A stretch of DNA of 64,000 bases from Planctomyces sp. SH-PL62. Its GTDB lineage: Bacteria; Planctomycetota; Planctomycetia; Isosphaerales; Isosphaeraceae. How positions within the stretch are numbered: the first letter of the stretch is position 1; the number at the start of each line of letters is the position of its first letter. The stretch is from positions 1 through 64,000 of the forward strand of contig NZ_CP011275.1 of assembly GCF_001610895.1 (NCBI RefSeq), written 5' to 3'. The position numbers and the translations under genes are program-made. Shown here piece by piece: positions 21,285 through 61,639 of this stretch. Under the pieces are notes generated by a model. That model was not told where the DNA came from. It saw only the letters and a list, made by a program, of their open reading frames with translations, and searched no databases.

Positions 21285-21901
21285 GGTGTAGCTCTCGTGG
21301 GGGCGACGCCCCCGTCGGCGCGCACGCCGGTCGGGGCGGTCTACCGAGTTTGCCGCCTGCCAAACAATGTCGAAGTCTGCGAGGTCGCCCCGGGGGGCGA
21401 ACAGGTGCGGGCCGGGCGAGGCCCTGCATCCAAAAACGGTTGAGGCCGCCCATCCAATCGCGGGCGACCTGATGGATTCATGTGATAAACCCAAGTAGAT
21501 CGTAAAACAAGCCGGCGCCGCGACGATGAAATCAATTTAATCGTCTCGAGCGGCCGGCTCGGCGGATCGATCGCCGCAGGATTCTCTCGCCCCCGGCCGG
21601 CGGCGCTTCATTCATCCGCGACCGAATCCAAAGCGCCACAACGATCCGCGCATCCCTCGCGACCCGCCCGCGTCGCACATAAATGGCGTTCCAGGACTTT
21701 CGTCCAGGAACGAGCGAAGCGCGACGGCACCGCAAAGAAGGACTTCGCAAGACGTATCGATCTGCCCCCTCTCTCGATGTTCGTCGCTTCCCGGGAACAC
21801 GACGATCGCCTACTCCGACCTCTGACGAGACCTTGAGCCGCGAAGGCGCTCTGGAGTATCGTCGGGCGACGATTGGACATGTGCGGCCGGATCGGCGTGG
21901 A
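21285..21901. other. Divergent intergenic region
   Basis: This 617-base stretch separates the minus-strand giant gene from the plus-strand AlbA/RecG-like gene and should hold both promoters. No open frame has a plausible ribosome binding site and composition. I could not assign promoter boxes with confidence. Confidence 0.4.
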
Positions 21902-32380: not shown

Positions 32381-32384
32381 CTAG

Positions 32385-33964: not shown

Positions 33965-34057
33965 CTAGTACTAGTTGGACTGTCACCGATTCCACTATTG
34001 TTTACCCGTGCCGAGGGTTAGGATGAGGGCCGGAGACCACCGACCGGAGGGACCCCC

Positions 34058-35473: not shown

Positions 35474-35500
35474 GACTTCCTTGAATCGGTGACAGTCCAA

Positions 35501-36347
35501 CTAGGTTCTGTCTGACGGCTCGATGAGCCGAAAGCAACGGCGGATCATGGCCAGCTTGACCATGGCCAGGAAGTTGACCGCCAGCTTCTCGAACCGCGTC
35601 GCCAGCCGCCGGTTCTCCTTCATCCAGAGGATGCACCTCTCGACGATGTTGCGGCGGCGGTAGGCCTCGGCGTCGAACGTCGGGCTTCGCCGCTGGTCCT
35701 TGCGGGTCGGGATCACCGCCTTGATCCCTCGCCGTCGCAGGTAGCGGCGGATGCGTCTGTAGCTATACCCCTTGTCGCCGGCCAGGCGGCGGGGCCGGCG
35801 TCGCGGCCGGCCCCGGCCGGGCCGCTTGATCCGCACCGCCTCGAGCGCCGGCTCCAGGGACCTCGACTCGTGGGCCTGGCCCGCGGTGACGACGGCCGAC
35901 AGCGGGACGCCGCCGGAGTCGACGACCAGGTGCAGCTTCGTCCCGAAGCCGCCGCGCGAGCGGCCGAGGGCGTGGTCGGCCGGCTCGGCCGTCCCCCTTT
36001 TCCCCCCCGGCCCCGGCGGCCGCGCGGCCGGCCCGGATGGACGTCCCGTCGATGCACCAGAGGTCGAAGTCGATCCGCCCCGAGGCGTCCAGCTCGAGAT
36101 GCAGCCGCTCCAGGATGCGGTCGATCGTGCCGTCGCGGGCCCAGCGGTTGAATCGGTCGTAGACGCTCTTCCACTTTCCGTATCGCTCCGGCAGCTCCCG
36201 CCACTGGGCGCCCGTATGGAGGATCCAGAGGACGCCGTCGAGCGTCGTGCGGTGGTCGTTCCACCGCCCGCCCGGCCTCCCGACCGGAGGGAGCAGGTCG
36301 GCGATCAGGGCGAACTCCTCGTCCTTCAGCTCGTAGCGTCGCGTCAT
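35501..36347 (-). CDS. IS5-family transposase in two frames
   Basis: The start is ATG 36347 (MTRRYELKDEEFALIADLLPP, then WRELPERYGKWKSVYDRFNRW). The first frame includes the catalytic Asp (FDLWCIDGTSIRA) and goes out of register at a GGGGGGGAAAAGGGGG run near 35995. The natural continuation is in the +1 frame (ADHALGRSRGGFGTKLHLV, LAGDKGYSYRRIRRYL, NIVERCILWMKENRRL), giving the second Asp and the final Glu. IS5-type elements often use frameshifting to make transposase, so this may be programmed slippage. The stop codon TAG lies in the duplicated target CTAG, outside the element itself. Confidence 0.8.
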
Positions 36348-36403: not shown

Positions 36404-36437
36404 CTAGTACTAAGGACGGGTGGTCGTCAGTTCCGCT

Positions 36438-37889
36438 GTAACTGATTATCGACCCACTTGCCCTCGGTTTTCCGGCGGCTTAGGTTGGTGGTCATGAGCG
36501 AATCGGACCTCGCCAAGCTGGATCGCGACGCCCTGATCGCCCTGATCCTGAAGCTCCAGGCCGAGATCGAGGCCCTGAAGCGGTCGGGCAAGCGGCAGGC
36601 GGCGCCGTTCTCGAAGGGGACGCGCAAGGCCGATCCCAAGCGGCCCGGCCGGAAGCCCGGCGAGGGGTCGTTCAAGACCCGCGAGGCCCCCGCCCCCGAG
36701 ACGCTCTCCGAGCCGCCGATCGACGTCCCCGTCGTCGAGGCCGAGTGCCCGAAGTGCGGCGGCGAACTCGACGAGGGCCGGGTCGAGGAGGCCTCGATCA
36801 CCGACCTGCCCGAAGTCGTCAGGCCTCGCGTGCGGCTCTTCCGGGTCGGCGTCCGACGCTGCAAGCGGTGCAAGGCGACGGCCCGCGGCCGCCACCCCGA
36901 CCTCGCCGCCGACCAACGCGGCGCGACCGCGCATCGGCTCGGCCCGCGGATCCTGGCCGCCGCCCATTTCCTCCATTACGGCCTGGGCGTGCCGGTCCGC
37001 AAGCTGCCGGCCCTGCTCGAGGCCCTCGTCGGCGTCCGCCTCACCCAGGGGGCGATCACGCTCGACGCCCTGAAGAAGGCCGCCGGGGCGATCGGGGCGA
37101 CGTATCGAAACCTGTGCGATTCCGTCCGCGAGGCGCCCTTCGTCCACACCGACGACACCGGCTGGCGCGAAGGGGGCTCGCCGAGGTGGCTGATGGTCTT
37201 CGAGACCGACGCGGCGACCGTCTATCAGGTCCGCCCGCGGCACCGCAACGAGGAGGTCCGCGAGCGGATCCCCGCCGACTACCGGGGCGTGATGATCACC
37301 GACCGGGCCGGGGTCTACGACGCCGAGGCCTTCGCGGGCGTCGAGAAGCAGAAGTGCCTGGCCCACGCGTTGCGGTCGATCTCGGAGGTCCTGGAGTCGA
37401 AGACGCGAGGAGCCCGTCGGTTCGCGAAGCGGCTGAAGGACCTGCTGAAACGGGCCCTGGAACTCGGGCGGGAACGCCGCGCCGGTCCGCCGCCGGCCGA
37501 CTTCGCCGGACGCGTGCGACGCCTGAAATTCGCGCTGACCGACCACCTCCGCGACCGGACGCTCCGGGACCGCGACGACCAGCGGCTGCTGAACGAGCTG
37601 GGCCGCTGCAACGACGCGGGGTCCCTGGTGCGGTTCCTGGACGACCCCCGGGTCGAGCCGACGAACAACCGCGCCGAGCGGGCGCTGCGGCCGGCGGTGA
37701 TCGCGCGGAAGACGTCGCAATGCACCAAGAACGCGCGAGGTACGCGAGCCTTCGAGGCCTGGACCAGCGTCCTGCGGACCCTGTCGAGGACCCTCCCGGC
37801 CCCCGACCTGCTCGATGACATTGTCCGCATCACCCACCCCGCCGCCCCCCCGATCTCCTGAGACGGACGCCGGAGCGCTAATCAGTTAC
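36438..37889 (+). mobile_element. IS66-type element, copy 1
   Basis: 1452 bp bounded by GTAACTGATTA at 36438 and TAATCAGTTAC ending 37889, with an 8-bp direct repeat GTTCCGCT on each side (36430-36437 and 37890-37897), as usual for IS66. It carries only the transposase; the accessory tnpA/tnpB of larger IS66 members are absent. It landed exactly at the last codons of a DUF932 gene. Confidence 0.9.
36494..37861 (+). CDS. IS66-family transposase (TnpC type)
   Basis: 455 residues from ATG 36494. A coiled-coil N-terminus (DALIALILKLQAEIEALKRS) is followed by a linker, a zinc finger (CPKCGGEL ... RRCKRCK) and the DDE_Tnp_IS66 core. Visible catalytic motifs are VHTDDTGWREG, MITDRAGVYDAEAF and the Glu-containing VEPTNNRAERALRP. 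The protein equals that of the second copy at 60232. No frameshift is seen, so this copy should be functional. Confidence 0.9.
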   Translation: MSESDLAKLDRDALIALILKLQAEIEALKRSGKRQAAPFSKGTRKADPKRPGRKPGEGSFKTREAPAPETLSEPPIDVPVVEAECPKCGGELDEGRVEEASITDLPEVVRPRVRLFRVGVRRCKRCKATARGRHPDLAADQRGATAHRLGPRILAAAHFLHYGLGVPVRKLPALLEALVGVRLTQGAITLDALKKAAGAIGATYRNLCDSVREAPFVHTDDTGWREGGSPRWLMVFETDAATVYQVRPRHRNEEVRERIPADYRGVMITDRAGVYDAEAFAGVEKQKCLAHALRSISEVLESKTRGARRFAKRLKDLLKRALELGRERRAGPPPADFAGRVRRLKFALTDHLRDRTLRDRDDQRLLNELGRCNDAGSLVRFLDDPRVEPTNNRAERALRPAVIARKTSQCTKNARGTRAFEAWTSVLRTLSRTLPAPDLLDDIVRITHPAAPPIS

Positions 37890-38624
37890 GTTCCGCTCCA
37901 GGTCGAACATGGCGTGGAGCCGCATGGTCTGCACGGCGTAGCTCCGGGGCTGCTTCTCCCCCGCTCCTTCATCGCGCCGGTGAAGGGCGTTGAGGAGGGC
38001 TCAGGCCGTCCGGGGCCGGAACTCCTCGAAGAAGGGCGGGTTCCGCCATTGCTACAGGACCTTCGCCAGATCGCGGTGCTGGACCATCCCCCACTCGAAT
38101 CCGCGGAAGATGAGGGCATCGGCCCGGTCGTCGTCGAGTTCCGCGTTCCTCATGCACTCGAAGCTGAGGGCATCCTGCTCCTGGAAGGCGGGCAGCGAGC
38201 CGACGGCCTCGGCGATGCGGAGGACGAAGTCCCGCTCGCCGTGGATCGTGTGCTTGCGGCGGACGAGCAACTCGGAGTTGAACGCCAATTTGTCGCACAC
38301 GAAGACGCAGCCGCCGGCGCAGAAGCCGAGCGGGAACGACTTGTCCACGCTGTTGCGGACGCCCACGGCGAGGGCGACGCCCTCGGCGATCGGGCTCTTC
38401 AGGTCGAGGGTCCCGAAGAATCGGGAACCGTCCCTGAGCACGCCGAGTTTCTGTCGTTCGACGACGTAGCCCGCCTCCCCGAGCGTGTCGGAGACGACGT
38501 TCAGCACGCGGCTGTGGGCCAGCGGGAACCAGCGTCCCTCGGGCCGAGGTGCGATGTACCGTTGGAGCTCCTCCGGTGTGACCGGCTTCGCTCCGCGGTG
38601 CAGGACGAGGTTGGAATCTGCCAT
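37890..38624 (-). pseudogene. DUF932 protein with two in-frame stops
   Basis: ATG 38624 opens MADSNLVLHRGAKPVTPEEL and reads a DUF932 (phage/plasmid-related) protein for 190 residues to a TAG at 38052-38054. The same frame continues after it with convincing sequence (QWRNPPFFEEFRPRTA), a TGA, then ALLNALHRRDEGAGEKQPRS and HAMFDLERN. The last codon abuts the IS66 copy; the original stop TGA lies on the other side of the element. Two nonsense changes plus the insertion make it a pseudogene. Such genes are typical of plasmids and phages. Confidence 0.7.
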
Positions 38625-38836: not shown

Positions 38837-40108
38837 TCAGGGCCGGCCCTTCAGGCTTTCGTCCTTCGACTTCGGAGCAGGCTCGGCGTCCCTTTGTTTT
38901 TGTTCTCCAGTATGCGAATGTTCAATTATGCCGACCAACGACTCCACGAGGGTCTCCACCTCCTCCTCCCTAGGATTGCGGCGGCGGATGATTCCTTCGT
39001 GGTCGATCACATAGGACGTTGGGAACACTTGCGGACTCCATCGCGTGGTGATCGGTCCGCCAACTCCGCCGTCCCACCAGCATCGCCAGGTGATCTCGCC
39101 GGAATCGATGGACTTCTTCAGGGTCGTCCGCTCTTCGTCGGTGTTGACGCTGAGCAGGACGAACGGGCGGTTTCGGAACTTCTCCACGACGGCCCGTTCG
39201 CGGGGATACGCTGCACGGCAAGGGCCGCACCAGTTGCCCGAGAAGGTGAGCAGGACGACCTTGCCTTTGTAGTCGCTGAGTTTGAAGCGCTCGCCGTCGA
39301 CATCCTCGCCTTCGATTTCAGGTGCCGGCTTGCCGACGCTTAAATAGCGGAGTTCGAATAATTCGCCGCCGGCGATCTCGGAGAGAGTGCGCCCGTCCTC
39401 CTTGACGTCGCCGTAGTCGGACGCGGCTTGTTCAAGGAGGCCGGCGGCCTCTGCCTCCATCGCCGACACGTCGCTCTCGTTCAAGAATTCGGCGAACCCC
39501 TCTTTCCCGCGATGCGCGGCGAACTCATCGATTCTGTCCGGATTTTCCCGCAGCCAACGTATCATCTTGGCCCGATAGGCCAGTAAGCGCCCCAGTGCGA
39601 GACAGGCGGAGCCGCGCTCGACTCGCCCGGGGTTTTCTTTGAGCACGGCGCGGATGAATCGCTCGGCGCCAACCCTGTCGAACAGAAAGAAGACCGATTG
39701 GCAGGCTTCGCCGACCCCTTGGTCCTTGGCGTGATCCCGCGACAGCAAGGCGACGGCCCTTTCGGAGTGGTCCGAAGGCCCGGCTTTGGCCGTGCGGATG
39801 ACGAAGACGAGGGCGCCGATCGCGGCGGAGTCGGCGGGCGAGGTTTCGGCCAACTCAAGGGCGAGATCGGAATTCGCGGCGACAGCGGCGAGATAGGCGT
39901 CCACCGCCCCTCTACGCCGATCCGGGTCGGACGCCTGCAACCCCGCCTGATATGCCTGCAACGCACGCGCTTGAGAGTCCTTGATGGCCTGCAGGCGTTC
40001 CGCTGGAGAAGCTACTGGTGGCGACACGTCCCCCTGGGCTGGGCAGGGTTGCCAAGACGCGCCGATCGACACCAACAACGTCAACGCCTCGATCATGCGA
40101 TAACGCAT
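38837..40108 (-). CDS. Secreted TlpA-type thioredoxin with helical N-domain
   Basis: 423 residues from ATG 40108, chosen because a signal peptide follows (MIEALTLLVSIGASWQPCPAQG). Residues about 30-250 are helical and TPR-like. The C-terminal 150 residues are a TlpA/redoxin domain (GKPAPEIEGEDVDGERFKL, VVLLTFSGNWCGPCRAAYPRE) with an intact CGPC active site and the cis-proline region VFPTSYVIDHEG. It probably works outside the cytoplasmic membrane as a disulfide reductase or isomerase. It is the last gene of the minus-strand export operon, 44 bases after the MauE-like gene, which suggests that the two form a redox pair. Confidence 0.8.
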   Translation of the reverse strand: MRYRMIEALTLLVSIGASWQPCPAQGDVSPPVASPAERLQAIKDSQARALQAYQAGLQASDPDRRRGAVDAYLAAVAANSDLALELAETSPADSAAIGALVFVIRTAKAGPSDHSERAVALLSRDHAKDQGVGEACQSVFFLFDRVGAERFIRAVLKENPGRVERGSACLALGRLLAYRAKMIRWLRENPDRIDEFAAHRGKEGFAEFLNESDVSAMEAEAAGLLEQAASDYGDVKEDGRTLSEIAGGELFELRYLSVGKPAPEIEGEDVDGERFKLSDYKGKVVLLTFSGNWCGPCRAAYPRERAVVEKFRNRPFVLLSVNTDEERTTLKKSIDSGEITWRCWWDGGVGGPITTRWSPQVFPTSYVIDHEGIIRRRNPREEEVETLVESLVGIIEHSHTGEQKQRDAEPAPKSKDESLKGRP

Positions 40109-40152
40109 CACGAACCTCGGTTCTCTGTTCGGCCTCGGCGACCGCTCCGAGC

Positions 40153-41091
40153 CTATCTGATCCGGCCGGCCAACTTCTCTTCGGCTTGGCGACGGTCGCC
40201 CGACGACGAGGGGAGCGAGAACGCGACGACGACCCCGTTCCGCAATATTATCTCCGCAGGAGTGGCGACGATCCATCTCTTCGCGTCGCTGAGTCGCCCT
40301 ACCGCGCAGGCCGTGGACTCGGGCGCGAGGCGATCGGCCGGATTGGCGTACGGCGGCATTTCGATCAGTGCGATGGCGGATCCATCGGATTTCTCGGAAT
40401 GCTCCCGAGTCTCGCGTTCGTACTGCGGAATCGCCTTCCGACAGGCCTCACAGCCGTGATGATAGAGTACGACCTTCCACTCCCCTCTCGCGAGCCGATC
40501 GGCTACGTCGATGTATTCAAGCAGGGGGAAGCGATCGCCTATCCAGGCCTCCGGTCTAAGTGGAAATGCGGTCACGGCGTCAACCCTACCGTCCCAAGGC
40601 GCCACTCGCATCCCCAGAGGCATCCCGATCCAGACGATAGAGGCGACGACGACCGCAGCCCGCGCGGGATGGGTGCCCACCCGTGGGGTTCGCGAGACAT
40701 CGGGCTGGATACGGGCGAAGGCGACGACGGCCGAAAGATCGAACGCGACCATGAGCCATGGGTTCAAGACGACGGTTCCGAAGCATCCGCAGGACGAGTT
40801 GCCCCCAACCGCCTTCCACAAGGCGACTGCGGCGAAAGCCGCGAAGAGACACTGGACCCATCGGCGAGTCGCTGCAGGATGCAAGCCCGTCAGCAACCAG
40901 ACGCCGACGCTGAACTCGAACGTCACGAGGGCCGCGACAAGCCAGCGATGGGCGGCTCCTTGTGCAAGGTCGGCGGCGTCACCCGACTTGAGCCAGGCGG
41001 CTGCGAGGAGGACCGCGCCGCACGAAATTCGGACCACGTCGTAGCCAGAAAGCGCGAGTCGACGCGTTGGTGTACTAGGATCAGTAGGCAT
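40153..41091 (-). CDS. MauE/DoxX-like redox membrane protein
   Basis: 312 residues from ATG 41091, which overlaps the stop of the pseudopilin gene by 11 bases. The N-terminal 160 residues have about four membrane segments ([64 protein letters not shown]). The motif [15 protein letters not shown] between segments is characteristic of MauE-type redox proteins. The C-terminal 110 residues are thioredoxin-like with a CEAC pair ([19 protein letters not shown]). MauE works with a thioredoxin (MauD) in forming the disulfides of the methylamine dehydrogenase small subunit; a similar job for the Cys-rich peptide of this operon is my inference. Confidence 0.8.
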
Positions 41092-42163
41092 CGTGCGCGA
41101 TCGCCTCACCCGCGGATCGCGTCGCGAGCGCCTGCCAAATACGCGGGGGCGGACAATGTTCCCACCAGCCTCCCGGGTTACGCGACGCGCCGACTGGATG
41201 ACCGGTCAGCGAATCCGCCGGCCAGGATTGGATCGAGTCCTTGACGAAGCGGACCGACCCGTCGCCCAGCAGGCAGTTGATACCGCCGGGATGTAGACTG
41301 CCTGCGGATGACGCGTGCGCGGCTCCCCCCGCAGCCAGGGCCACTTTCGCGTGCATGTTCGGGGGATAGAACGCGGTGAACATGGTGTCCCCCCAGTTGC
41401 CAGTCATGTACCAGCCGTACTTGGACGACGAGGAGTGACTCAGAAGGTCGAACCGTCGGAAGAGGCCGGTCGCCTTCTCTGCTGCGAAGATCGTGTTGCT
41501 CAGGCCGTCGCTGACGGCGGCGAGTGTGATCGGCGAGATGTCGTTGAAGCTGCCGTCCGATTGAGCCGCCAGGGGCGGAGCGATGACGCAGTGCGAGGCG
41601 GGAGATGGGACCGCATCGACGTGATGTGCGCCGAAGCAGCCGGAGTAACTGGTGAGGGCGACGTTCAACCGTTCTCCCTCGACCGCCAGGCCGTGCCTCA
41701 GCATCCGGTCTACGTTGGCCTGGACCGCTCGACCCGCGCCCGGATCGGTTGGGCAGGCGTACGCATCGACGGCCATTGTGTGTATGGTCCTATTCTCACG
41801 CCCGAGTATCGTCACGTTTTGGTTGATCGCGTTGTATAGAGAGGCTTGCTCCATCCCGGGAAGGATCATGATCAGGAAGCTCTTGTCGACGATGGACGAC
41901 GTGCAGGGCGGTCTCGTCCCGGAGTACCGGGGGTCGTACGTCATCATCCGACCGGGCGGAAGCGATGAGAAGGCGTCTACGTAAACGTGAAGGGCCACCC
42001 CGATCTGCTTGAGATTGTTGGCGCATTTCGCGCGCCGGGCCGCCTCTCGCGCCGATTGAACCGCTGGGACCAACATACCTACCAAGATGGCCATGATCGC
42101 CACGACAACCAGTAGCTCGATCAGCGTGAACGCGGAACAGGTCCTGAGCCGCGGCCTTCTCAT
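41081..42163 (-). CDS. DUF1559 type II pseudopilin-like protein
   Basis: 360 residues from ATG 42163, selected because GGAG lies six bases upstream. The N-terminus has the prepilin cleavage and helix signature ([20 protein letters not shown]) followed by [20 protein letters not shown], the DUF1559 hallmark. The C-terminus has the H-X9-DG motif ([18 protein letters not shown]). DUF1559 proteins are a large planctomycete family processed like type II secretion pseudopilins and displayed outside the cytoplasmic membrane. Sited in the middle of the operon between a secreted protein and MauE, it probably takes part in assembly or secretion of the operon's product. Confidence 0.88.
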
Positions 42164-42214
42164 GGCGATCTCCACGGGTGATGGGGGGCCGGGCGATTTA
42201 GGGGCGCGATGCCG

Positions 42215-43222
42215 TCAGGCAGCCGCCCGCCTCGTGTTTGAGCGTGCGGCGAAATGTCGAAGGGCCGCGAGGCATGCGAGGCCGCCGCCGAAGATCCAAT
42301 AATCGATCCGCGGACTTGAATGGGGGGTGAGGATTGCATCCGAGACGCCGAAGACGCTCAGTTTGAACTGCGATTCCGGCACGTCTCCGAACTTCACGTT
42401 GTGCAGTTGGAACACGTCGGCCCCTTCGCCTCTCCCACCCGGGTAGATGAATTCGAACCTCCCATTCTCGGGGAACACCTGGCCCGAATCCCACCTCCGG
42501 CTTTCCACCGAGCCCTTGTACCGAGAGCCTGGGGGCATTTGGGTGCCCGGACGGCCCGTCGCGACCTCGACGTCATAATCGACGAGCGACCAATCGAGAT
42601 CCGGTTCGAACGCCATCCGTCCACCTCCGACCCAATGCGAGGGGTCCGCGATCGTGAAACGGACTTCAACGCGCGAGGCACCTGTAGACGCCGCCCTCTC
42701 CTCCACGCTCGACATCTTGAAGGAGGGGTGGCGTATCATGCTCATCACCGTGGCGTCGCCGATCGTGTAGGCGGCTTTCATGTACCTGTCGACGCCCAAA
42801 CTGATGACGGTCGCGGCACTGTCGCCCACATTCGTGCCTCGAGACACGGAGTTGACGATGAAGGGGAGATCCGCCGAAGGCCGCCCCAACTGGAAGAAGA
42901 ACTCAGGAGTTCGGCACTGCACGGCCTCTCGCGAGGTCTTCTGGCCGCGGATGTCGGAATAGCGACTGACGACCATCCTTCTGTCGCCGTCTACGAAGTA
43001 CTCGTTGTCCCTGACGATGTCGCCGTTCGAGACGAGACGGCCGTAGCAGGCTACTTTCGAGGCCGCGGATGCGAGCTTGGCCTGGGCCGTCGGATAGTCT
43101 TTGAGAAATCGTGCGGCTTGGGGTTGCGGCGAATCCGCAGCCCCGCTCGATCCCCAAGTGGTAAGGACGGCGACCAGCGCGCAGGCGATCGTCGGCGTGA
43201 TCTTCACCAGCGGGTCCTCCAT
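42215..43222 (-). CDS. Secreted protein with C-terminal membrane anchor
   Basis: 335 residues from ATG 43222. A signal peptide (MEDPLVKITPTIACALVAVL, cleavage near AADS) leads into a mainly beta protein (NEYFVDGDRRMVVSRYSDIR, EVRFTIADPSHWVGGGRMAF) and a near-C-terminal membrane segment (IDYWIFGGGLACLAALRHFA) followed by Arg. The body might have a LolA/LppX-like half-barrel, but this is only an impression. It lies 52 bases upstream of the pseudopilin gene and 122 bases after the Cys-rich peptide gene. Function unknown; probably a surface or periplasmic component of the same pathway. Confidence 0.7.
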   Translation of the reverse strand: MEDPLVKITPTIACALVAVLTTWGSSGAADSPQPQAARFLKDYPTAQAKLASAASKVACYGRLVSNGDIVRDNEYFVDGDRRMVVSRYSDIRGQKTSREAVQCRTPEFFFQLGRPSADLPFIVNSVSRGTNVGDSAATVISLGVDRYMKAAYTIGDATVMSMIRHPSFKMSSVEERAASTGASRVEVRFTIADPSHWVGGGRMAFEPDLDWSLVDYDVEVATGRPGTQMPPGSRYKGSVESRRWDSGQVFPENGRFEFIYPGGRGEGADVFQLHNVKFGDVPESQFKLSVFGVSDAILTPHSSPRIDYWIFGGGLACLAALRHFAARSNTRRAAA

Positions 43223-43344
43223 TTCGGATGAACGTCGATTTGAGGATCCATCAGCGACGGATCCTACCCGGCCTGTCCGTCTCCGATGCCGGTCGGACGC
43301 GTCGAGGGGGCCGCCGAACGGCGGTCCCCCCCGAGCAGAATCCG

Positions 43345-43590
43345 TCAAGGGTTGTTGAAACACATGCCGGACCGGCAGCCGCAGGGAGGACGGCAGTCCT
43401 GATCCCCCGTGGCGCCCCCGCAACCCGTGGGCGTCGTCGGACAGGTGCAAGAGGCGTTGTTGCACGTCGTCAGGGCGCCGACGTCCACATCGGCCTGCAC
43501 GGAGGGAGTCAAGACCGAAGCCCCAGCGAGGAGGGTGGTCGCCCCCAGAACGAAGGAACACGCATCAACGAAGCTCTTGATCCGCGTCAT
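43345..43590 (-). CDS. Small secreted Cys-rich peptide
   Basis: 81 residues from ATG 43590, preceded by a strong AGGAGG site about nine bases upstream. The first 33 residues form a signal peptide (SFVLGATTLLAGASVLTPSVQA). The mature ~48 residues have eight cysteines in CxC, CGG and PPCGC arrangements (ASCTCPTTPTGCGG, CRPPCGCRSGMC), enough for four disulfides. It has no enzyme motif. Neighbours on the same strand encode a pseudopilin, a MauE-like membrane redox protein and a TlpA-type thioredoxin. The best reading is that this peptide is the exported, disulfide-rich substrate of the operon; it could be a structural, signalling or toxic peptide. Confidence 0.75.
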   Translation of the reverse strand: MTRIKSFVDACSFVLGATTLLAGASVLTPSVQADVDVGALTTCNNASCTCPTTPTGCGGATGDQDCRPPCGCRSGMCFNNP

Positions 43591-43646
43591 TCAATCGATC
43601 CTCCTAGAGAACGAGATCCGAACACAGCCCTATGAACCACGCTAAG

Positions 43647-44557
43647 AGGCTCGGACAAAACCTATCCGGCGATGGGCAATTCGTCGTGCGATAGCCTGTA
43701 GCAGATGACGCTCGCGGCGAGGGTGGCCCAGGCTTCCCGGACGACCAGCAGGCGGTCGTAGCGGACCCGCATCCGTCGCAGCCCCTTCAGCCAGCTGATC
43801 GTCCGCTCGACGACCCATCGGACCTTGCCCAGGCCGCTGCCGTGCGGCGTCCCCCGCCTGGCGATGTGGGGCTCGATCCCCAGCCATCGCAGCAGGTCCC
43901 GGGTCGCTTCCGAGTCGTAGCCCCGGTCGGCGAACAGGTCGTCGGGCAGCTCCTTCGGGCGGCCCGGCCTGCCGCCGACGCTCGGATAGTCGAGGACCAA
44001 CGGGATGATCTGGCGGTGGTCGGAGGCGTTCGCCCCCGCCGTCCGGATCGCCAGGGGCACCCCCCGACGGTCGACCATCAGCGTGTGTTTCGACCCCTTC
44101 CGGCTGCGGTCGACGGGGCTCGGGCCGGTCGCCTCGCCGCCGCCGAAGGCCCGGATCGTCACCCCGTCGACGACGACCGTGTCGGCGTCGAGCCTCCCGG
44201 CCCGCTTCAACGCCCCGAGCAGGTCGGCGTGCAAGCGGGCCCAAACGCCCAGGAGTTCCCAGGCCCTCAGGCGCCGGGCCGCCGTGCGGCCCGAGCATCC
44301 CATCTCGGCCGGGACGTCCTCCCAGCGGCAGCCGGTCGCCAGGACGAACCAGATGACCCGCAAGGCCTTGCGATGCGGGATCGGCGGGCGTCCCCCCTTG
44401 CGGCCGACGGGCTGCTCCGGCGGAAGGTGGTGGGCGACCTGGTCGTAGAAGTCCTCGGGCATGCGGGCGGCGGCCATGGCGTGGGCCCTCCGGTGAAGGA
44501 TCGACGCCATGGCAAGCCTTCAGATCACATGCCGATCAGGAGGTTTTGTCCGAGCTT
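43647..44557 (-). mobile_element. IS5-family element in the export operon
   Basis: 911 bp with near-perfect terminal repeats (AGGCTCGGACAAAACCT at 43647 and AGGTTTTGTCCGAGCTT ending 44557) and CTAAG on both sides (43642-43646, 44558-44562). It lies between the DUF1573 gene and the Cys-rich peptide gene. It may separate the second half of the operon from its promoter, or provide a new one. Confidence 0.9.
43662..44510 (-). CDS. IS5-family transposase, single frame
   Basis: 282 residues from ATG 44510. The DDE_Tnp_1 core is complete: TVVVDGVTIRAFGGGE (first Asp), DDLFADRGYDSEATRDLL (second Asp) and VRWVVERTISWLKGLRRM (Glu). The N-terminal half has the usual IS5 helical region (PEDFYDQVAHHLPPEQPVG, ALRVIWFVLATGCRWEDVP). 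It is a different subgroup from the IS5 at 35505-36403 and needs no frameshift. It appears intact. Confidence 0.9.
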   Translation of the reverse strand: MASILHRRAHAMAAARMPEDFYDQVAHHLPPEQPVGRKGGRPPIPHRKALRVIWFVLATGCRWEDVPAEMGCSGRTAARRLRAWELLGVWARLHADLLGALKRAGRLDADTVVVDGVTIRAFGGGEATGPSPVDRSRKGSKHTLMVDRRGVPLAIRTAGANASDHRQIIPLVLDYPSVGGRPGRPKELPDDLFADRGYDSEATRDLLRWLGIEPHIARRGTPHGSGLGKVRWVVERTISWLKGLRRMRVRYDRLLVVREAWATLAASVICYRLSHDELPIAG

Positions 44558-44576
44558 CTAAGTCACGGGAGCTGTC

Positions 44577-45089
44577 TCATCGAGCGATGCACGCATATTC
44601 GACGTTGGCGTAGGCGCTGACGAAAGACGGGCAGTCGGTATAGATCCCGATAGTACGCTTCTCGCGACCTTCACCGCCCGGCTTGATCCGGAAGCGGACT
44701 TCCCCTTTGCTCCATCGAGGGATGCGGACCGGAAGATCCTCGATGCGGACGCATGAACAGTCGGAGTTGGTCCCGACCACGTTATAGTCGGTTGAGGACA
44801 TGTTGTAGACGACGAACGTCGCTTTGGCCTCGTCGTCGTCGCGGACGACGCCGAGGTCGCTTGGCGGTTTTTCGACGTAGAACGACCGCCCCTGCAGGTA
44901 GACCACGGCCGGCCAAGGCGACCCGAACCGTAGGTATGAGAGAGCGACGACGCAGACTGCGGCGACCGTCGTCACGGTCAGGAAGCGTACGACCCAAGCC
45001 TTCCACGTCACGCTCGGATTCGCCGTCGGCGTTCGACTCGACTCCGACTCGCATTCGCGGGCGTCGGATGTCTCGACATCTCGGTCCAT
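44577..45089 (-). CDS. Membrane-anchored DUF1573-type protein
   Basis: 170 residues from ATG 45089. One membrane segment (VVRFLTVTTVAAVCVVALSYL) follows a ~30-residue cytoplasmic head. The outer part matches the DUF1573 pattern: DEAKATFVVYNMSSTDYNVV, a conserved SDCSCV pair and RWSKGEVRFRIKPGGEGREK, an immunoglobulin-like strand order. DUF1573 domains are common on the outer side of the membrane in Bacteroidetes and planctomycetes and are poorly understood. It is co-directional with the glycosyltransferase upstream (gap about 100 bases) and with the Cys-rich peptide genes beyond the IS5 element. Confidence 0.75.
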   Translation of the reverse strand: MDRDVETSDARECESESSRTPTANPSVTWKAWVVRFLTVTTVAAVCVVALSYLRFGSPWPAVVYLQGRSFYVEKPPSDLGVVRDDDEAKATFVVYNMSSTDYNVVGTNSDCSCVRIEDLPVRIPRWSKGEVRFRIKPGGEGREKRTIGIYTDCPSFVSAYANVEYACIAR

Positions 45090-45193
45090 CGGATCGGCCT
45101 TCCCTTCTTCAAAGAGGCTGCGTCGCAGCCCATAAGTCAGGAATCTCCCATGATAGGCGACGGCCTCGCGTGCGGTTCAGCCCCGGGATGGGA

Positions 45194-46351
45194 TCATAAG
45201 CCGATCCGGGGAGGGGACGGTTTGAACTTGAGCATCCCGACGAGCCGCGTCTTCCACGTCCCGAAAGCTCGGCTGGCTACACGCAACCTCGCCTCGACGG
45301 CTTGGCGATCGCGGGGACATTCGCGGAGGACTTCCGCCCAGAGGCGGAACGCCTCGCGCAGCCGCCCTCGTTCCTCGGCCAGAAGCGCGAGGTTGCGAAG
45401 AGGAAGATGCCCGTACACGCCGTCGACCGAGCACAGGAAGAGGCGAGGGCGCTCAAGCCGCAGAAGTCGGCGCCAACCGGCCTCCGCGCCGTCCAAATCG
45501 CCGGCGAGCTTTTTGATGCACGAGTCGCGGAATATGAGTTCGCCGTCGTCCGGGAACGACGACAGTCCCTCCCGACACGCCGCCGAGGCATCGTCCAGAG
45601 AGCCTGCCAGTTGATGGGCCAGCGCCTTGGCGATGTACAGATTCCTACGGATCGGCATATCCGGCTTGGACGACGCGAGTCCAGCGTCCAGGTAGCCTAA
45701 GGCGTCGTCGAGAAGCCTGCCGTCGATTGACGCGCGGCCGAGGTTCAGGAGGGTGAAAGGATCGTCCGGAGTTTCCTGCAACTCTTCGAGAAGCAGCGAG
45801 ACCTTCCGCTCGGATTTGCGCTTGTCGACCTCTGGATCGGAGTATCCGGTGTGGGTGATGATCACGTCCGTCCACCGTACGCCGACGCCCACGCGTTCCA
45901 AGGCGGGCAGGATCTGCTCGTGGATCTTGCCGGACCACCGAACGGCGTCGTTGCGGGGGAATAAGCGGACCTGGTCGACGACGAAGCCCGTCGGAGCACC
46001 AGGGATGTTGGATCGGACTGACGCCACATAGGCCTCGTCCGTATCGACGAGGCCGTCGAAGAGAGACCGCAGACGACGGCGGCAGCACTCGTCGAGACGA
46101 TCGTCCGCGTCGAGCCAGAAGATATAATCGCCAGCGGCGAAGTCGATGGCTGCGTTACGGGCGACCGAGAAATCGTCGGTCCAAGGAACTTCGTAGATTC
46201 GGGCTCCGAATTCTCTTGCGATCTCGCGCGTCCGATCCACCGATCCTGTATCGACGACCACGATCTCATCGAAGAGGTCGACGACGCAGCTCAAGCAGCC
46301 GGCAAGGTTCGTCTCCTCGTCCCGGACGATCATGGTTAGGCTTACCTGCAT
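45194..46351 (-). CDS. Family 2 glycosyltransferase with TPR-like tail
   Basis: 385 residues from ATG 46351 (MQVSLTMIVRDEETNLAGC), the typical start for this family; the frame stays open further upstream without coding character. The GT-A domain has IVRDEE, DEIVVVDTGSVDRT, ARNAAIDFAAGDYIFWLDADDRLDE (the DAD metal-binding motif) and VRWSGKIHEQI. Residues about 230-385 are TPR-like helical repeats (LLNLGRASIDGRLLDDALGYL, AKALAHQLAGSLDDASAACREG). It is the first gene of the export operon. A sugar could be added to one of the exported proteins, but the substrate is unknown. Confidence 0.85.
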   Translation of the reverse strand: MQVSLTMIVRDEETNLAGCLSCVVDLFDEIVVVDTGSVDRTREIAREFGARIYEVPWTDDFSVARNAAIDFAAGDYIFWLDADDRLDECCRRRLRSLFDGLVDTDEAYVASVRSNIPGAPTGFVVDQVRLFPRNDAVRWSGKIHEQILPALERVGVGVRWTDVIITHTGYSDPEVDKRKSERKVSLLLEELQETPDDPFTLLNLGRASIDGRLLDDALGYLDAGLASSKPDMPIRRNLYIAKALAHQLAGSLDDASAACREGLSSFPDDGELIFRDSCIKKLAGDLDGAEAGWRRLLRLERPRLFLCSVDGVYGHLPLRNLALLAEERGRLREAFRLWAEVLRECPRDRQAVEARLRVASRAFGTWKTRLVGMLKFKPSPPRIGL

Positions 46352-46979
46352 CCGACGCGGCGAAGCCCCCGGCACCCAGGTCCGGTGGACGCGACGTCCG
46401 GGAGGGTGGGGTCGGCCCATTCGCAGCCAGTGCAACATATCTCGAGATGCCGAGTACGGAGCCCGCGGCATGGAGACATCCTCTCAGTAGCCTCGAAGCG
46501 AGGCTCTCGCGAGCGTCGCGACGACGGCGGACGGGCGTCATTCGACGTTTCCAACCCGATAGTCAGATCCACACGGGTTGTGAGATAGACAAATATCTCC
46601 TGAATCCTGTCTAATCAAGGAAAAAACTGGAAACTTTACTGACCGTCACAGATTTTGGAGGGGGCGTGCCCGCCTGCTGACATGATCTGACGAAACGGCC
46701 ATGATCCACGGTGCACGGAAGGAGGTGGATCATGGCCGACGGGACCGTGGCGCGGTCCTCGCGGTCGCCCCGGGGCCCCGCAACGCGGACAAGGCGCCTT
46801 CATGGGGGCTCGGCGGGGAGGTACGATCGGACCGGGCGTCTCGGCGCTCATGGCTCGCGTCTCCGGGGGATGAGGCTCGTTTCCAACCCCATTCCCCGGG
46901 ACGCGGGCCCTAACTTTCAAGCCCCCAACCACTTCGCATCGATCTACGCCTCCCTTCGGTCGAGTTGAGCGAGGAGTGT
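46352..46979. other. Region upstream of the export operon
   Basis: The first part should hold the promoter of the glycosyltransferase operon. A short open frame at 46732-46968 has a GGAGGTGGATC ribosome binding site but a low-complexity Arg/Gly/Ser product, and I do not accept it as a gene. The region ends at a CTAG (46980-46983) that borders an IS701 copy, and some gene 3' end may have been lost here. Confidence 0.35.
46697..46737. repeat. 13-bp inverted repeat over a start site
   Basis: GGCCATGATCCAC at 46697-46709 and its exact complement at 46725-46737 enclose a 15-base loop containing AAGGAG. The right arm contains ATG 46732. If the short frame at 46732 were expressed, this hairpin would control access to its ribosome binding site. 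A binding site for a dimeric protein is the alternative. Confidence 0.5.
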
Positions 46980-46983
46980 CTAG

Positions 46984-48521
46984 TACTAGTTGGACTGTCA
47001 CCGATTCCACTATTGTTTACCCGTGCCGAGGGTTAGGATGAGGGCCGGAGACCACCGACCGGAGGGACCCCCATGTCGCTCCTCGACCACCCCGACGCCC
47101 AGTCGCTCCTGGCCGACGCCGTCCTGACCCCCGAGGCCGTCCGCGGCTGCGAGGGCCGGCTCGCCGCGTTCCTCGGGCGCTATCTGCCGCGGTTCCGCCG
47201 GGCCGAGCAGCGCCGCAACGCCGCCCTCGTCGTCCGGGGCCTGCTCGGCGGGCTGCGGCGCAAGACCTGCGAGCCGATCGCCGTCGAGGCCGGCGTCCAC
47301 CGCAAGCCGATCCAGTTCCTCGTCGGGGCCGGCAAGTGGGACGACGAAGCCGTCATGGCCGAGCTCCGCCGCCACGTCGCCGAGGAGCTGGGCGACGACC
47401 GGGCCGTCCTCGCGATCGACGCCACGACCTTCCCGAAGTCCGGGGCCGACTCCTGCGGCGTCGGTCGGCAGTGGTGCGGCCGGCTGGGCAAGCAGGAGAA
47501 CTGCCAGCGCGGGATCTTCCTGGCCTACGCCGCCCCCGGCGGCTACGCCCCGCTGGACCGAAGGCTGTACCTGCCGAAGGACTGGGCCGGCGACCCGGCC
47601 CGACGGGCGAAGTGCCACGTCCCCGAGGACGTCGAGTTCCGGGAGGGCTGGCGGATCGCCGCCGAACTGATCGAGCGGAGCGGGCCGGGGCTGCCGCACG
47701 CCTGGGTGGTCGGCGACGACGAGTTCGGCCGCCCGGCCCAATTCCGCGCCTGGCTCCGCGGCCGCGGCGAGCGCTACGTCCTCGACGTGCCCGGCGACAC
47801 GATCGTCCGCGACCTGGAGTGTGCGCCTCCCCCGGGCCGACGCCCCGGCCGCGGCCGCCCGCGGACGGTCCCGTTCCGCCGCGTCGACGCCTGGGCGGCC
47901 GCCCTGCCGGCGGGCCGCTGGACTCGGCTGACGATCCGGGCCGGCGAGAAGGGCCCGCTGCGGGTCGACGCGATGGCGGTGCGGGTGCGGACCCGGCTGG
48001 AGCACCGGGTCGGGCCGGAGGAGCGGCTGGTGGTGATGCGCACCGTCGAGGCCGAGCCCGAGACGCACTACGCGCTGAGCGACGCCGCGGCCGACGTCCC
48101 GCTGGAGGAACTGGTGCGGGCCCGGTTCGCGCGGCACCGGATCGAGGAGGTGTTCGAGGCGGCCAAGGGGGAGGTCGGGCTGGCGCAGTACGAGGTTCGG
48201 GGCTGGGTGGGCTGGCACCACCACGTCACGCTGTCGCTCCTGGCGCCGTGGTTCCTCTGCTGCGAGCGGCGGCGGGTCGGGGGGGGAAAGGCCGGCGGTG
48301 ACGGTGTCGCAGGCGCGCGAGGTCTTCGCCCGTCTGCTGCGCGTCCCGGCGCCGGGCCCCGAGCGGATCGCCGCGGAAGTGTCGCGCGTCCTGTGGCGGA
48401 AGGAGGCGGCGCGGATCTATCACTGGCACAAGGCCACCGGCGGTTTCCCGCCGCGCCGGCCGCCACCGGATACCAGTTGATCAGGTGAGACTTCCTTGAA
48501 TCGGTGACAGTCCAACTAGTA
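46984..48521 (+). mobile_element. IS701-type element, copy 3, complete
   Basis: 1538 bp from TACTAGTTGGACTGTCACCG at 46984 to its complement ending 48521, with CTAG on both sides (46980-46983, 48522-48525). This complete copy defines the element: the inverted repeat itself contains CTAG. It separates the export-operon region from a Cas4-like pseudogene. Confidence 0.9.
47073..48488 (+). CDS. IS701-family transposase (copy 3)
   Basis: This product is identical to that of copy 2 over its whole length, including the DDE_5 motifs (LAIDATTFPKSG, AWVVGDDEFG, HRIEEVFEAAKGEVG). The run of eight G at about 48279 and the out-of-frame natural C-terminus (ending 48480) are conserved. The start ATG 47073 follows a GGAGGGACCCCC site. 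Conservation of the same apparent frameshift in three copies argues that it is normal for this element and not damage. Confidence 0.85.
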   Translation: MSLLDHPDAQSLLADAVLTPEAVRGCEGRLAAFLGRYLPRFRRAEQRRNAALVVRGLLGGLRRKTCEPIAVEAGVHRKPIQFLVGAGKWDDEAVMAELRRHVAEELGDDRAVLAIDATTFPKSGADSCGVGRQWCGRLGKQENCQRGIFLAYAAPGGYAPLDRRLYLPKDWAGDPARRAKCHVPEDVEFREGWRIAAELIERSGPGLPHAWVVGDDEFGRPAQFRAWLRGRGERYVLDVPGDTIVRDLECAPPPGRRPGRGRPRTVPFRRVDAWAAALPAGRWTRLTIRAGEKGPLRVDAMAVRVRTRLEHRVGPEERLVVMRTVEAEPETHYALSDAAADVPLEELVRARFARHRIEEVFEAAKGEVGLAQYEVRGWVGWHHHVTLSLLAPWFLCCERRRVGGGKAGGDGVAGARGLRPSAARPGAGPRADRRGSVARPVAEGGGADLSLAQGHRRFPAAPAATGYQLIR

Positions 48522-49497: not shown

Positions 49498-52053
49498 TTA
49501 CTCGGCCAGGATTTCCACCTCGTTCTCTGCCTGGACTTCGGCCTCGACTTCAGCCTGTAGCTCGGCGACTCGCTGTTGAATTCGCGTGTAGATGGGGATG
49601 TCGTGACCTAATACCTCGATGCTCACGGCCAACACGTATCGAGCGGTCGAGTCGGGGTCCTTGCTCCACCCTTGGTGGCCTACGACGGCGATACAGAAAT
49701 CATCAGGTAATGAATTTGATTTGATGACAGCCCAGTCCTTTTGAACTGTCCCTGAGCTTCGAGAAACCCCACGAACGTTGCCGTGAATCGGGTTAGTCTG
49801 AATGGCCCACTTGAACGTGCTCCCTGCCGATTCGTCAGCCTCTTCAGCCTCTTCGTCGTCTTTGGGCTTCAAAGCCCTGGTGCGGAATTCCGATATGTCC
49901 TCGTTCTGGTAGCTGCTTTTCCAATCAACCCACGTAGATAGATAACGGCGACGGTTGCGGCGTGTTCGGCGGGGCTCAGCGGCGTAGGACAAGGTAACTT
50001 CGACGAGGACGTCGAACTCCTGTCCGGGGCGACGGACTTCATCGGGAATTGGAACCTGATAAACGTGGCAACCGCCCGCCTTGATGTCTTTATCACCGCT
50101 CGTGATGAGGGTCGTCCTAAATTCGGAATTCGTCGTCGCACGTTCCATGTCCGGCACGCCGTAGCCGATGCGACGCACGATGTCTCCGCGTTGTTCCGGA
50201 GTGGTCCCATTAGTCCAGTCGGGCCACCTAGCGGATTGAATGATGAGAGCTCGGTAGAGAAGGCATGATTCCTCGGGCAAGATTTCCTGGAGACGAGCAG
50301 CAATTCGCGTGACTTTGGGGGCGGCGAATGAGGTTCCCACCTCGTCACGTGAATATGCAGGGCCTCCCTGATGCGTCGAACGAATCATCTCGGGGTAGCA
50401 TTCGCTCCCGCACGGCGGTGTGCTGACGGTGGGAGGCGTCGTGCGAGAAACAAAGTTGTCGCCCCCGAATTCAACAACCTCGGGTTTGATGGACTTCCAA
50501 ATCCCGAGGCCACTGCGGGAGAACGCCGAGGGATGCTCGGCTCCCGGAGCACATGCCGCCCAATCCGGGTCTTCGTACTCTCGGTAGCTAATCGAACCGA
50601 CGGTAAGGGCCTGCAAGCTTTGAGAGGGGTTCGATACGCGGCTTGAATCCTCGTTGAGGTAGCCGGGATAAGTGCGACCGGCGAGGAGGTGTTCGAGGAC
50701 TCCCGGATTGGTCGCTGTGTTCGATGGGAGTATGTTCCCGGAGCTGACGACGAAAAGGACGTCGTACTCATGAGACAAGCGGTCAATCTCGGCAGCCCAT
50801 GCCGACATGTGACGCGTCCGACATGGTGCAGACGCGGTTATCGAGTGGTTGAAAAGCCTGGTTAGTCGCTCTCCCTCGTGGAAGTGCTTGATGATGGAGT
50901 TCAGTAAATCCGGCGGAAAGAGGTTCTCGGGCATCCGGTTGCCCGCATCGAGTACCCGAGCGTTCTGAACCCACCAAGACGCTTCGTGCGAGCCAGTGCG
51001 AGGAATCACTTCACCGAAAAGCACGGCTCCCGCAACACGAGTCCCATGCCCGCTGGGAGGGCAGTAGTCGGCGACGTCGGTGGGTGATTCCTCGGGTAGG
51101 AAGTTCCAAGACGAGGCCGAGTCGATGGCTGGATTGAGAAGGTAGTGCCCTTCTTGGATACCGCTATCGATGACACAGACGGCCGGGGCGTCTTCGTCAG
51201 GTGGGACGATGGTGACTGCTTCCATCTCCCGCTCAAGCGTCTCGCGAATGGTCTGCGGAAGGACGATGTCATCCGGCTCAACGACTTCGAAGACAAAAGC
51301 GAAGTTGAGGACGAGGTCTCTGAGCCCTCTTCCCTTGACGCAGATTCTGACAGTGAATTCTTCGGATAGCGACGTATCGGAGTGCGGGGTGCTGAACTGA
51401 TTTAGTACCTTCCCCTTATAGTCAGCTACAAATGAATTTATGATGTCTTCCCGCTCCATCGCGAGGGCATCCCACCTCATGTAAGCGTCGTTTCGAGCGT
51501 CGGTCCACTCCTTCAAGTTGGTCGCGTAGTCGGCTTCCCGCTTCGCCCAAGTCTTGTCGGTCATCCTGCGACCACGCTTAGGGGCGTTCGGTCGCCTGGG
51601 AATTTGAAAGTCGCCGGAGCAGGAAACGCCGACGTCCACCGTGTAATCACCGTCCTCCCTGAGTTTGGGCCATTCCTCTTGTAGATGTTCCGAGAGAATT
51701 CGAGTTAGTCGCTTCGATTGGTCCGGGTCTTCGTGCAGGTTGTAGACGCGTGCAACCGTCCCCGAGCCCCGAACACCCCCGACGAATTCTTGCAGCTTCT
51801 TGTTGAACTCGTTGAGGTCTAAGTCTTCGCTCGCCACGATGACGAAACCATCGACTTCTTCGGAGACGACCTCGAAGCCGAACCACTTTCGGAGTTCGTC
51901 GAGGTCGAGCATGACGTCCACTTCAAGAAGAAGGGGAACGTTCTTGGGAAGGCTCGGAAGATTTTGTTTCTCGCGGTCCGCGACGCGAATACGGCGAATA
52001 CGAACGATCGGGCCGCGAACCGGGCCGCGTAGTTTCGAAGCGGCTTCCATCAT
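49498..52053 (-). CDS. S8 (subtilisin-like) serine protease, recombined N-terminus
   Basis: 851 residues as read. The catalytic triad is visible at Asp296 (AVCVIDSGIQ), His336 (PPSGHGTRVAG) and Ser575 (EVGTSFAAPK), with Asn440 of the oxyanion hole (VVSSGN). A ~260-residue N-terminal part and a ~250-residue C-terminal part flank the peptidase domain, as in cytoplasmic subtilases that are encoded next to AAA+ ATPases in mobile and defence-rich regions. No signal peptide. No ATPase lies upstream: the first ~27 residues come from the non-coding flank of the duplicated parB block, with the junction near 51975, so the true N-terminus and any partner were probably lost. Codon use is less GC-biased than in its neighbours. 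Confidence 0.8.
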   Translation of the reverse strand: MMEAASKLRGPVRGPIVRIRRIRVADREKQNLPSLPKNVPLLLEVDVMLDLDELRKWFGFEVVSEEVDGFVIVASEDLDLNEFNKKLQEFVGGVRGSGTVARVYNLHEDPDQSKRLTRILSEHLQEEWPKLREDGDYTVDVGVSCSGDFQIPRRPNAPKRGRRMTDKTWAKREADYATNLKEWTDARNDAYMRWDALAMEREDIINSFVADYKGKVLNQFSTPHSDTSLSEEFTVRICVKGRGLRDLVLNFAFVFEVVEPDDIVLPQTIRETLEREMEAVTIVPPDEDAPAVCVIDSGIQEGHYLLNPAIDSASSWNFLPEESPTDVADYCPPSGHGTRVAGAVLFGEVIPRTGSHEASWWVQNARVLDAGNRMPENLFPPDLLNSIIKHFHEGERLTRLFNHSITASAPCRTRHMSAWAAEIDRLSHEYDVLFVVSSGNILPSNTATNPGVLEHLLAGRTYPGYLNEDSSRVSNPSQSLQALTVGSISYREYEDPDWAACAPGAEHPSAFSRSGLGIWKSIKPEVVEFGGDNFVSRTTPPTVSTPPCGSECYPEMIRSTHQGGPAYSRDEVGTSFAAPKVTRIAARLQEILPEESCLLYRALIIQSARWPDWTNGTTPEQRGDIVRRIGYGVPDMERATTNSEFRTTLITSGDKDIKAGGCHVYQVPIPDEVRRPGQEFDVLVEVTLSYAAEPRRTRRNRRRYLSTWVDWKSSYQNEDISEFRTRALKPKDDEEAEEADESAGSTFKWAIQTNPIHGNVRGVSRSSGTVQKDWAVIKSNSLPDDFCIAVVGHQGWSKDPDSTARYVLAVSIEVLGHDIPIYTRIQQRVAELQAEVEAEVQAENEVEILAE

Positions 52054-60014: not shown

Positions 60015-60175
60015 AAAACCAGGGTCGTCGCGGTCGTCCGTTCCGACAGGCTCGCAAGCCGACCCAGGTCATTATGTCCGAAAACTCGGATTTTCGATTG
60101 ACTTGCACGGCGGTGGCAACAAAATTAAGCACAAGTCCCGATATAACGAACTCATTTTCAGGTTCTGGGAGAGCG

Positions 60176-61627: not shown

Positions 61628-61639
61628 GGAGAGCGTACG

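Follow-up and report, generated by a model that had tools for sequence, protein, structure and literature searches.

Analysis of a 64,000-nucleotide stretch of Planctomyces sp. SH-PL62 DNA (the window; bases 1-64000 of the 86,054-bp contig NZ_CP011275.1, in a genome of 6.78 Mb) revealed an operon built around a small cysteine-rich peptide, which on balance we read as a plasmid copy of a cassette of Planctomycetia, whose product would be an exported, disulfide-bonded, hypervariable mini-protein. This reading is drawn from sequence, namely the signal, cysteine parity, gene linkage and MauE-DUF1573 fusions. The operon type is widespread but little-noticed in planctomycetes. At its centre is the following gene:

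43345..43590, minus strand: cysteine-rich peptide precursor of 81 amino acids, with a Shine-Dalgarno site, a signal sequence and eight mature cysteines

The start codon is preceded by a ribosome site (AGGAGG-N9-ATG) and, judged by eye, signal cleavage is likely after SVQA, which would leave a mature peptide of about 47 residues with the cysteine order C-x4-C-x-C-x6-C-x8-C-x3-C-x-C-x4-C and no tryptophan. Its cysteine fraction is the highest of the 232 window open reading frames (ORFs) of 60-199 residues, and it is the sole window ORF to pass a filter for exported, cysteine-rich products (an N-terminal hydrophobic stretch followed by at least six cysteines). An earlier note on this DNA had described a secreted 81-residue peptide with eight mature cysteines, and the Shine-Dalgarno site, signal sequence and cysteine count indicate that it is real. 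Searches of Pfam, NCBIfam and solved structures gave no sign that it is a truncated piece of a larger known protein: no Pfam or NCBIfam family scored over its cut-off, and no solved structure matched up to E 10. A sequence search for homologues in 99 genomes returned, beyond the peptide itself, only noise-level matches (best E 0.0036).

Linkage of such peptides to MauE, a membrane protein encoded in the same operon, recurs in other planctomycetes. Of 59 genomes, 10 hold MauE of the window type, and a profile search (E ≤ 1e-5) found MauE in 85 of 347 Planctomycetia genomes, the window's own genome being counted in both; the motif C[GA]C[FL]G is present in 79 of 99 surveyed MauE ORFs. At 92 loci (the window, 11 earlier loci and 80 profile-match places, taken mostly best first), 41 ORFs passing the filter lie within 1 kb of MauE on its strand versus one on the opposite strand. 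The corresponding counts farther away are 8 versus 0 at 1-2 kb (where the overlapping loci L117 and L056 share one ORF), 9 versus 4 at 2-3 kb and 10 versus 3 at 3-7 kb. A cysteine-rich ORF starts within 250 bp after MauE in 55 of the 99 MauE ORFs that have at least 300 bp downstream. In a set of 102 loci, which omits the window and 13 further loci that are duplicates or overlap others and in which five lie outside Planctomycetia (L128, L132, L135, L146 and L147), the filter returned 98 candidates in 1,251 kb, spread over 72 loci, compared with 5 candidates in 302 kb, chance-like by eye, at 20 DoxX control loci hand-picked from the match list. A Singulisphaera genome from the window's family holds a related MauE locus (L013/L137); the peptide of that locus (L013 3400-3606, minus strand) contains the stretch CPSPYVCCPDTGTCC, which we take to be reminiscent of granulin or knottin spacing.

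The peptides found beside MauE changed nearly completely between species, with the helper genes retained. Mean column identity among them is 11%, and identity to the window peptide is 16-35% over short alignments. When 48 were scanned at E ≤ 0.01, one gave a weak unrelated Pfam match, one a weak unrelated NCBIfam match and the rest none. What unites them as a class is their layout, cysteine parity and partners, not their sequence. The number of mature cysteines is even in 53 of 61 peptides (binomial p 1.5e-9), a set in which all rows were kept, including the probable non-genes L020 and L111 (odd) and L115 8253 and L129 (even); with one row per locus it is even in 48 of 56 (p 2.3e-8). The window peptide, with eight, is even like its class, and even cysteine numbers suggest full cysteine pairing. 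A CxC-x(3-18)-CxC ending occurs in 21 of 59 peptides (L020, L111 and L129 excluded, window peptide added), compared with a mean of 1.4 and a maximum of 5 in 200 shuffles; this is one of five CxC patterns, all post hoc, that occur in 23, 21, 13, 19 and 31 of the 59 (shuffled means 8.8, 1.4, 6.1, 5.7 and 35.2). The C-terminal end of the window peptide is CxC-x4-C only, related to but outside that pattern. Where peptides occur in tandem, identity in the leader (first 45 columns) and in the core is 80% versus 51% at L105, 96% versus 85% at L101, and 58-91% versus 40-50% at L122. Some leaders depart from the Sec type in having a double-glycine-like stretch downstream of the hydrophobic segment (GG in L021, L057 and L145); a single G occupies the corresponding stretch in L084, L096 and L110.

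The peptide gene is accompanied in the window by the following features, given in gene order:

45194..46471, minus strand: GT2 glycosyltransferase with a TPR-like tail, likely start 46351, from profile scans; peripheral
44577..45089, minus strand: DUF1573 protein with a CxC (DCSC) motif (PF07610, 26.9 over 26.1)
43646..44557, minus strand: IS5-type insertion with TTAG flanks, transposase at 43662-44510 (NF033580, 193.1 bits, cut-off 110)
43345..43590, minus strand: the peptide
42215..43222 (about), minus strand: secreted protein with a C-terminal membrane anchor (the C-anchored protein, 'P2 family'), from a family model and predicted fold
41081..42175, minus strand: DUF1559 pseudopilin with an N-methylation motif and H-X9-DG (PF07596 2.6e-42, PF07963, TIGR04294)
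40153..41109, minus strand: MauE-type membrane domain (SCGCFG) with a C-terminal thioredoxin-like domain (CEAC) (PF07291, 28.2 bits, gathering score 27.0)
38837..40108 (about), minus strand: secreted TlpA/ResA-type thioredoxin (NWCGPC), from profile scans

All of the genes that the earlier note had listed around the peptide, for DUF1559, C-anchored, MauE, TlpA-type and DUF1573 proteins and a glycosyltransferase, are present where it had placed them, and the absence of a dehydrogenase holds among the eight operon proteins scanned. The genes are on the same strand and tightly spaced, as expected for the operon that the note had drawn, except at the IS5 element, which it had overlooked. The element (about 912 bp between the TTAG copies) separates the DUF1573 and glycosyltransferase genes from the peptide gene, and ends some 55 bp before the start of the latter; it may have cut or altered transcription of the peptide. 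The description of a MauE-like membrane redox protein is borne out by the PF07291 match, to which the C-terminal thioredoxin-like domain has to be added. In an AlphaFold2 model of this protein (mean predicted local distance difference test score, pLDDT, 79.7) the C-terminus is thioredoxin-like, for example in comparison with DsbE (3gl3; Z 9.6, 3.3 Å, 122 residues); none of the matches listed is restricted to the membrane domain of MauE, a negative that carries no weight. The contig encodes ParB and an RPA-type replication initiator (with a TrfA match under its cut-off) and is therefore probably a plasmid. Circular ends of the contig were not found, and a tblastn search of MauE against 72,556 plasmid records gave no matches.

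Conservation of the neighbours with the peptide extends to MauE, the C-anchored protein, DUF1559 and DUF1573. The C-anchored family has 53 non-duplicate members at the MauE loci, of which 41 lie +1.2 to +1.9 kb from MauE, and the window protein matches a hidden Markov model (HMM) of 26 such proteins built without it (E=2.4e-22). A peptide directly precedes 41 of the 53, and for five of the other 12 (L055, L094, L095, L100 and L102) a peptide missed by the filter follows MauE; the window arrangement fits, with the peptide ending at 43345 and the C-anchored protein starting at about 43222. The C-anchored protein matches no Pfam or NCBIfam family up to E=1, so there is no LolA/LolB profile match. 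A LolA/LolB-like fold is tentatively predicted from its model (mean pLDDT 65.9), which aligns with LolA3 (9tp6; Z 10.0, 5.6 Å, 201 residues) and a DUF1329 protein (Z 10.1, 6.0 Å, 205 residues). DUF1559 proteins are encoded by 79 ORFs in 61 of the 102 loci, 70 on the MauE strand and 9 opposite, at a density of 6.3 per 100 kb versus 1.0 at the DoxX controls. For the window DUF1573 protein there are 50 matching ORFs, in 45 of the 102 loci; among the matches listed, 23 of 25 are the MauE ORF itself, matched in the C-terminal domain of a MauE-DUF1573 fusion. Judged from these sequences, MauE comes in two forms, MauE-thioredoxin (as in the window) and MauE-DUF1573. The TlpA protein and the glycosyltransferase, which the earlier note had included in the unit, do not recur: close relatives at the 102 loci amount to one opposite-strand match for the former and two weak matches for the latter, and both were rejected as core genes.

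MauE itself is not universal. The C-anchored family was found in 103 of the 347 genomes (own genome counted); 59 genomes hold both, 26 MauE only and 44 the C-anchored family only (Fisher 5e-19). We hand-picked 20 MauE-less loci from the C-anchored matches, in 14 genomes without a MauE match, and applied a looser peptide rule there (4 cysteines versus 6 at MauE loci). An exported cysteine-rich peptide lies just upstream of the anchored protein at 8 of the 20 (8 of 29 family members), DUF1559 is present at 13, 11 of these on the partner's strand, and a DUF1573 relative at 9. At one such locus from the window's family, L193, the peptide has the 8-cysteine order of the window (C-x4-C-x-C-x5/6-C-x4/8-C-x2/3-C-x-C-x4-C), and in six frames of the 2.37 Mb fetched (overlaps included) the strict pattern matches only L193 and the window (L024 being the window). 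This peptide is preceded by a DUF1573 relative (26% identity, E 2.5e-7) and followed by an ORF that joins part of the anchored domain to DUF1559, with 34% and 53% identity, respectively, to their window counterparts. Because L193 and other MauE-less loci hold them, the peptide, C-anchored protein, DUF1559 and DUF1573 are probably an older core, and MauE looks like a common oxidising module of the cassette; it is no more constant than the C-anchored protein, DUF1559 and DUF1573. In the window, the core DUF1573-peptide order is split by IS5.

Several observations weigh against the cassette reading. No cysteine-rich ORF stands directly downstream of 44 of the 99 MauE ORFs, and the filter is empty at 30 of the 102 MauE loci. 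The window peptide itself lies 2,236 bp upstream of MauE, unlike the common layout in which it follows within 250 bp; gene order also deviates at L013 and L014. A leader HMM from 59 linked ORFs (L020 and L111 left out) did not pick the window peptide, which was outside the 15 best window ORFs, although the test has low power because the best window ORF scored only 4.9 bits. Among MauE-less loci, the upstream peptide was not found at 12 of the 20, and the eight positive loci represent five genomes, four loci being from one genome. The framework pattern shared with L193 was composed after viewing both peptides, and a looser version also matches L147. Twenty MauE loci hand-picked from 47 places in other classes of the phylum yielded one plausible cysteine-rich ORF beside MauE (74 residues, at L148, which covers the same record region as L132); the presence of MauE is therefore no sign in itself that a peptide is encoded. 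Finally, we infer the disulfides, export and partner binding of the peptide from its sequence context. As the C-anchored family was not found at the 20 loci from outside the class, the cassette as defined is, as far as sampled, a Planctomycetia feature. The MauE locus L147 (Acidimicrobiaceae) holds a cysteine-rich ORF (about 8266, plus strand) that by eye resembles a methylamine dehydrogenase small subunit; L147 is possibly a classical mau locus.

A mechanism is proposed for the cassette in which the peptide would leave by Sec, and the MauE-thioredoxin protein, with DUF1573 (CxC) and here the extra TlpA, would form and sort its disulfides in the periplasm and pass electrons to the membrane. 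The peptide could be held by the anchored LolA-like protein, acting as its cognate chaperone or guard, and be set on the outer membrane or driven across it with the help of the DUF1559 pseudopilin. Once there, it might be a fast-changing effector with neighbours or surfaces as its targets. Identity among the partner copies of the L122 array is 22-36%, against 66% for the two full-length MauE copies; that partner and peptide cores both change fast fits cognate recognition, whether by chaperone, receptor or immunity protein. The dedicated export and folding route for a new class of cysteine-rich peptide that the earlier note had suggested survives in its dedicated operon and probable disulfides, but not in the TlpA protein and glycosyltransferase as recurrent parts. 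More tentatively, and with somewhat less than even confidence, the wider family could be an as yet undescribed Planctomycetia arsenal of hypervariable, disulfide-locked exported peptides, each with its own fast-evolving, membrane-anchored LolA-fold partner and delivered with a DUF1559 pseudopilin.

The same variability could reflect a toxin with its immunity, the peptide being a secreted, bacteriocin-like antibacterial and the LolA-like protein its cognate immunity. The fast change of peptide cores (40-50% at L122) and partner beside the slower MauE copies would suit such a pair, as would the probable plasmid and the arrays that repeat peptide and partner together (two and two at L105, four and four at L122, two peptides and three partners at L079). 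A chaperone or receptor would co-vary likewise, however; a dedicated export ABC transporter or C39 peptidase was not noticed, in analyses that included no search aimed at these, and we know of no bioactivity for these peptides. We regard this explanation as rather unlikely. The recurrence of DUF1559 could point in another direction, to a surface or fibre component, with the peptide as a disulfide-stapled tip or piece of coat that is assembled together with the pseudopilin: 50 DUF1559 ORFs lie on the MauE strand within 4 kb downstream at the 102 loci, the family persists at 13 of the 20 MauE-less loci (11 on the partner strand), and the L193 ORF joins part of the C-anchored domain to DUF1559. 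However, DUF1559 is very common in such genomes (107 matches in the window's own), structural proteins are usually less variable, and the L193 ORF may be a frame error instead of a fusion because the N-terminal part of the anchored protein is missing; we consider a structural role doubtful and a shade less probable than a toxin.

Disulfides are favoured over metal by the even-cysteine bias and the oxidising neighbours. An exported metal-binding peptide, to which the CxC motifs would contribute metallothionein-like clusters, is accordingly very improbable, and a signal sequence is unusual for metallothioneins. The MauE domain and thioredoxin within one operon recall maturation of the methylamine dehydrogenase small subunit by MauE/MauD, of which the peptide could be a relative. 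The cofactor of that subunit is tryptophan tryptophylquinone, formed from tryptophan, and is impossible in a peptide that has none. With no Pfam match for the peptide, no dehydrogenase among the eight scanned operon proteins and a match of 15.6 to the MauD profile TIGR02661 (cut-off 188.6), we give this relationship almost no weight.

Glycocins of the sublancin type (SunA, SunS, BdbA/BdbB) also combine a cysteine-rich peptide with thiol oxidases and a GT2 enzyme. We rejected this idea, as the window glycosyltransferase scores 76.2 bits against a TIGR04195 (SunS) cut-off of 350 and does not recur at related loci. It is the best of five TIGR04195 matches in its own genome, and such matches are generic, being found in 10 of 14 control genomes and over the cut-off in one. 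The nearest published case found, from the parts of the source available, is that of three MauE-containing families of candidate ribosomally synthesized and post-translationally modified peptides (RiPPs) in Streptomyces, predictions only from decRiPPter (PMC7794033). As in the window, MauE (in one family with MauD) stands there beside a predicted precursor with at least eight cysteines and other mau genes are absent; a LolA-like partner, DUF1559, a DUF1573 fusion and signal-sequence precursors go unmentioned in those parts, so that partner set, precursors and phylum differ (PMC7794033). The same source speculates that MauE helps to form the disulfides of the methylamine dehydrogenase beta subunit (PMC7794033). 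Unlike the mau cluster (MauA/MauD/MauE), the window operon has no dehydrogenase gene that we saw, a tryptophan-free peptide and hypervariable relatives of it. TMcins are peptides oxidised at the membrane by an enzyme of their own cluster, which is proposed here for the window cassette too, but they use a DsbA-family enzyme, have one disulfide and come from Gram-positive hosts (PMC13252029). YTV-domain cell-wall proteins of Planctomycetales are cysteine-rich and of the same phylum, and the window peptide differs in its 81 residues and lack of a Pfam match (PMC8567305). NVEALA peptides of Bacteroidota were considered for comparison as well. No description of the cassette was found in open-access titles and abstracts, subscription literature being mostly beyond the reach of that search. 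Among systems in which a cysteine-rich peptide has its own oxidase, the cassette has a fair chance of being a class of its own.

If these readings are correct, between one in four and one in three of the Planctomycetia genomes sampled (85 of 347 by MauE, 103 of 347 by the anchored partner) hold parts of the cassette, whose peptides would lie outside the scanned Pfam and NCBIfam families and amount to a large natural library of cystine-rich mini-proteins. DUF1559 and DUF1573 proteins would gain a testable role, MauE would be tied to disulfide formation beyond methylamine metabolism, and, under the arsenal reading, some of the very large and unexplained DUF1559 family would acquire a function.

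Ten MauE ORFs are cut by contig ends, and in one genome three MauE genes (L045, L046 and L054) lie 95-219 bases from the start of three different contigs; both observations may point to assemblies broken by repeated cassettes. Single in-frame stops were seen in MauE frames at G187:C2 325472-325825 (TGA), G044:C57 58-339 (TAA) and G225:C191 705-1046 (TAG). Elsewhere in the window, a 4,504-residue open frame (7980-21494, minus strand) has many internal repeats at 12549-19302 (64-90% identical over 670-1,700 bp) and is possibly a giant repeat protein on the plasmid. The operon region is bracketed by near-identical repeat copies, transposase-like by eye, at 33965-35504, 46980-48519, 36435-37890, 60173-61628 and 30965-32401 (two pairs at 99.9-100%, another inverted copy at 99.2%), and a subtilase (S8) gene at 49498-52053 (minus strand) adjoins ParB.

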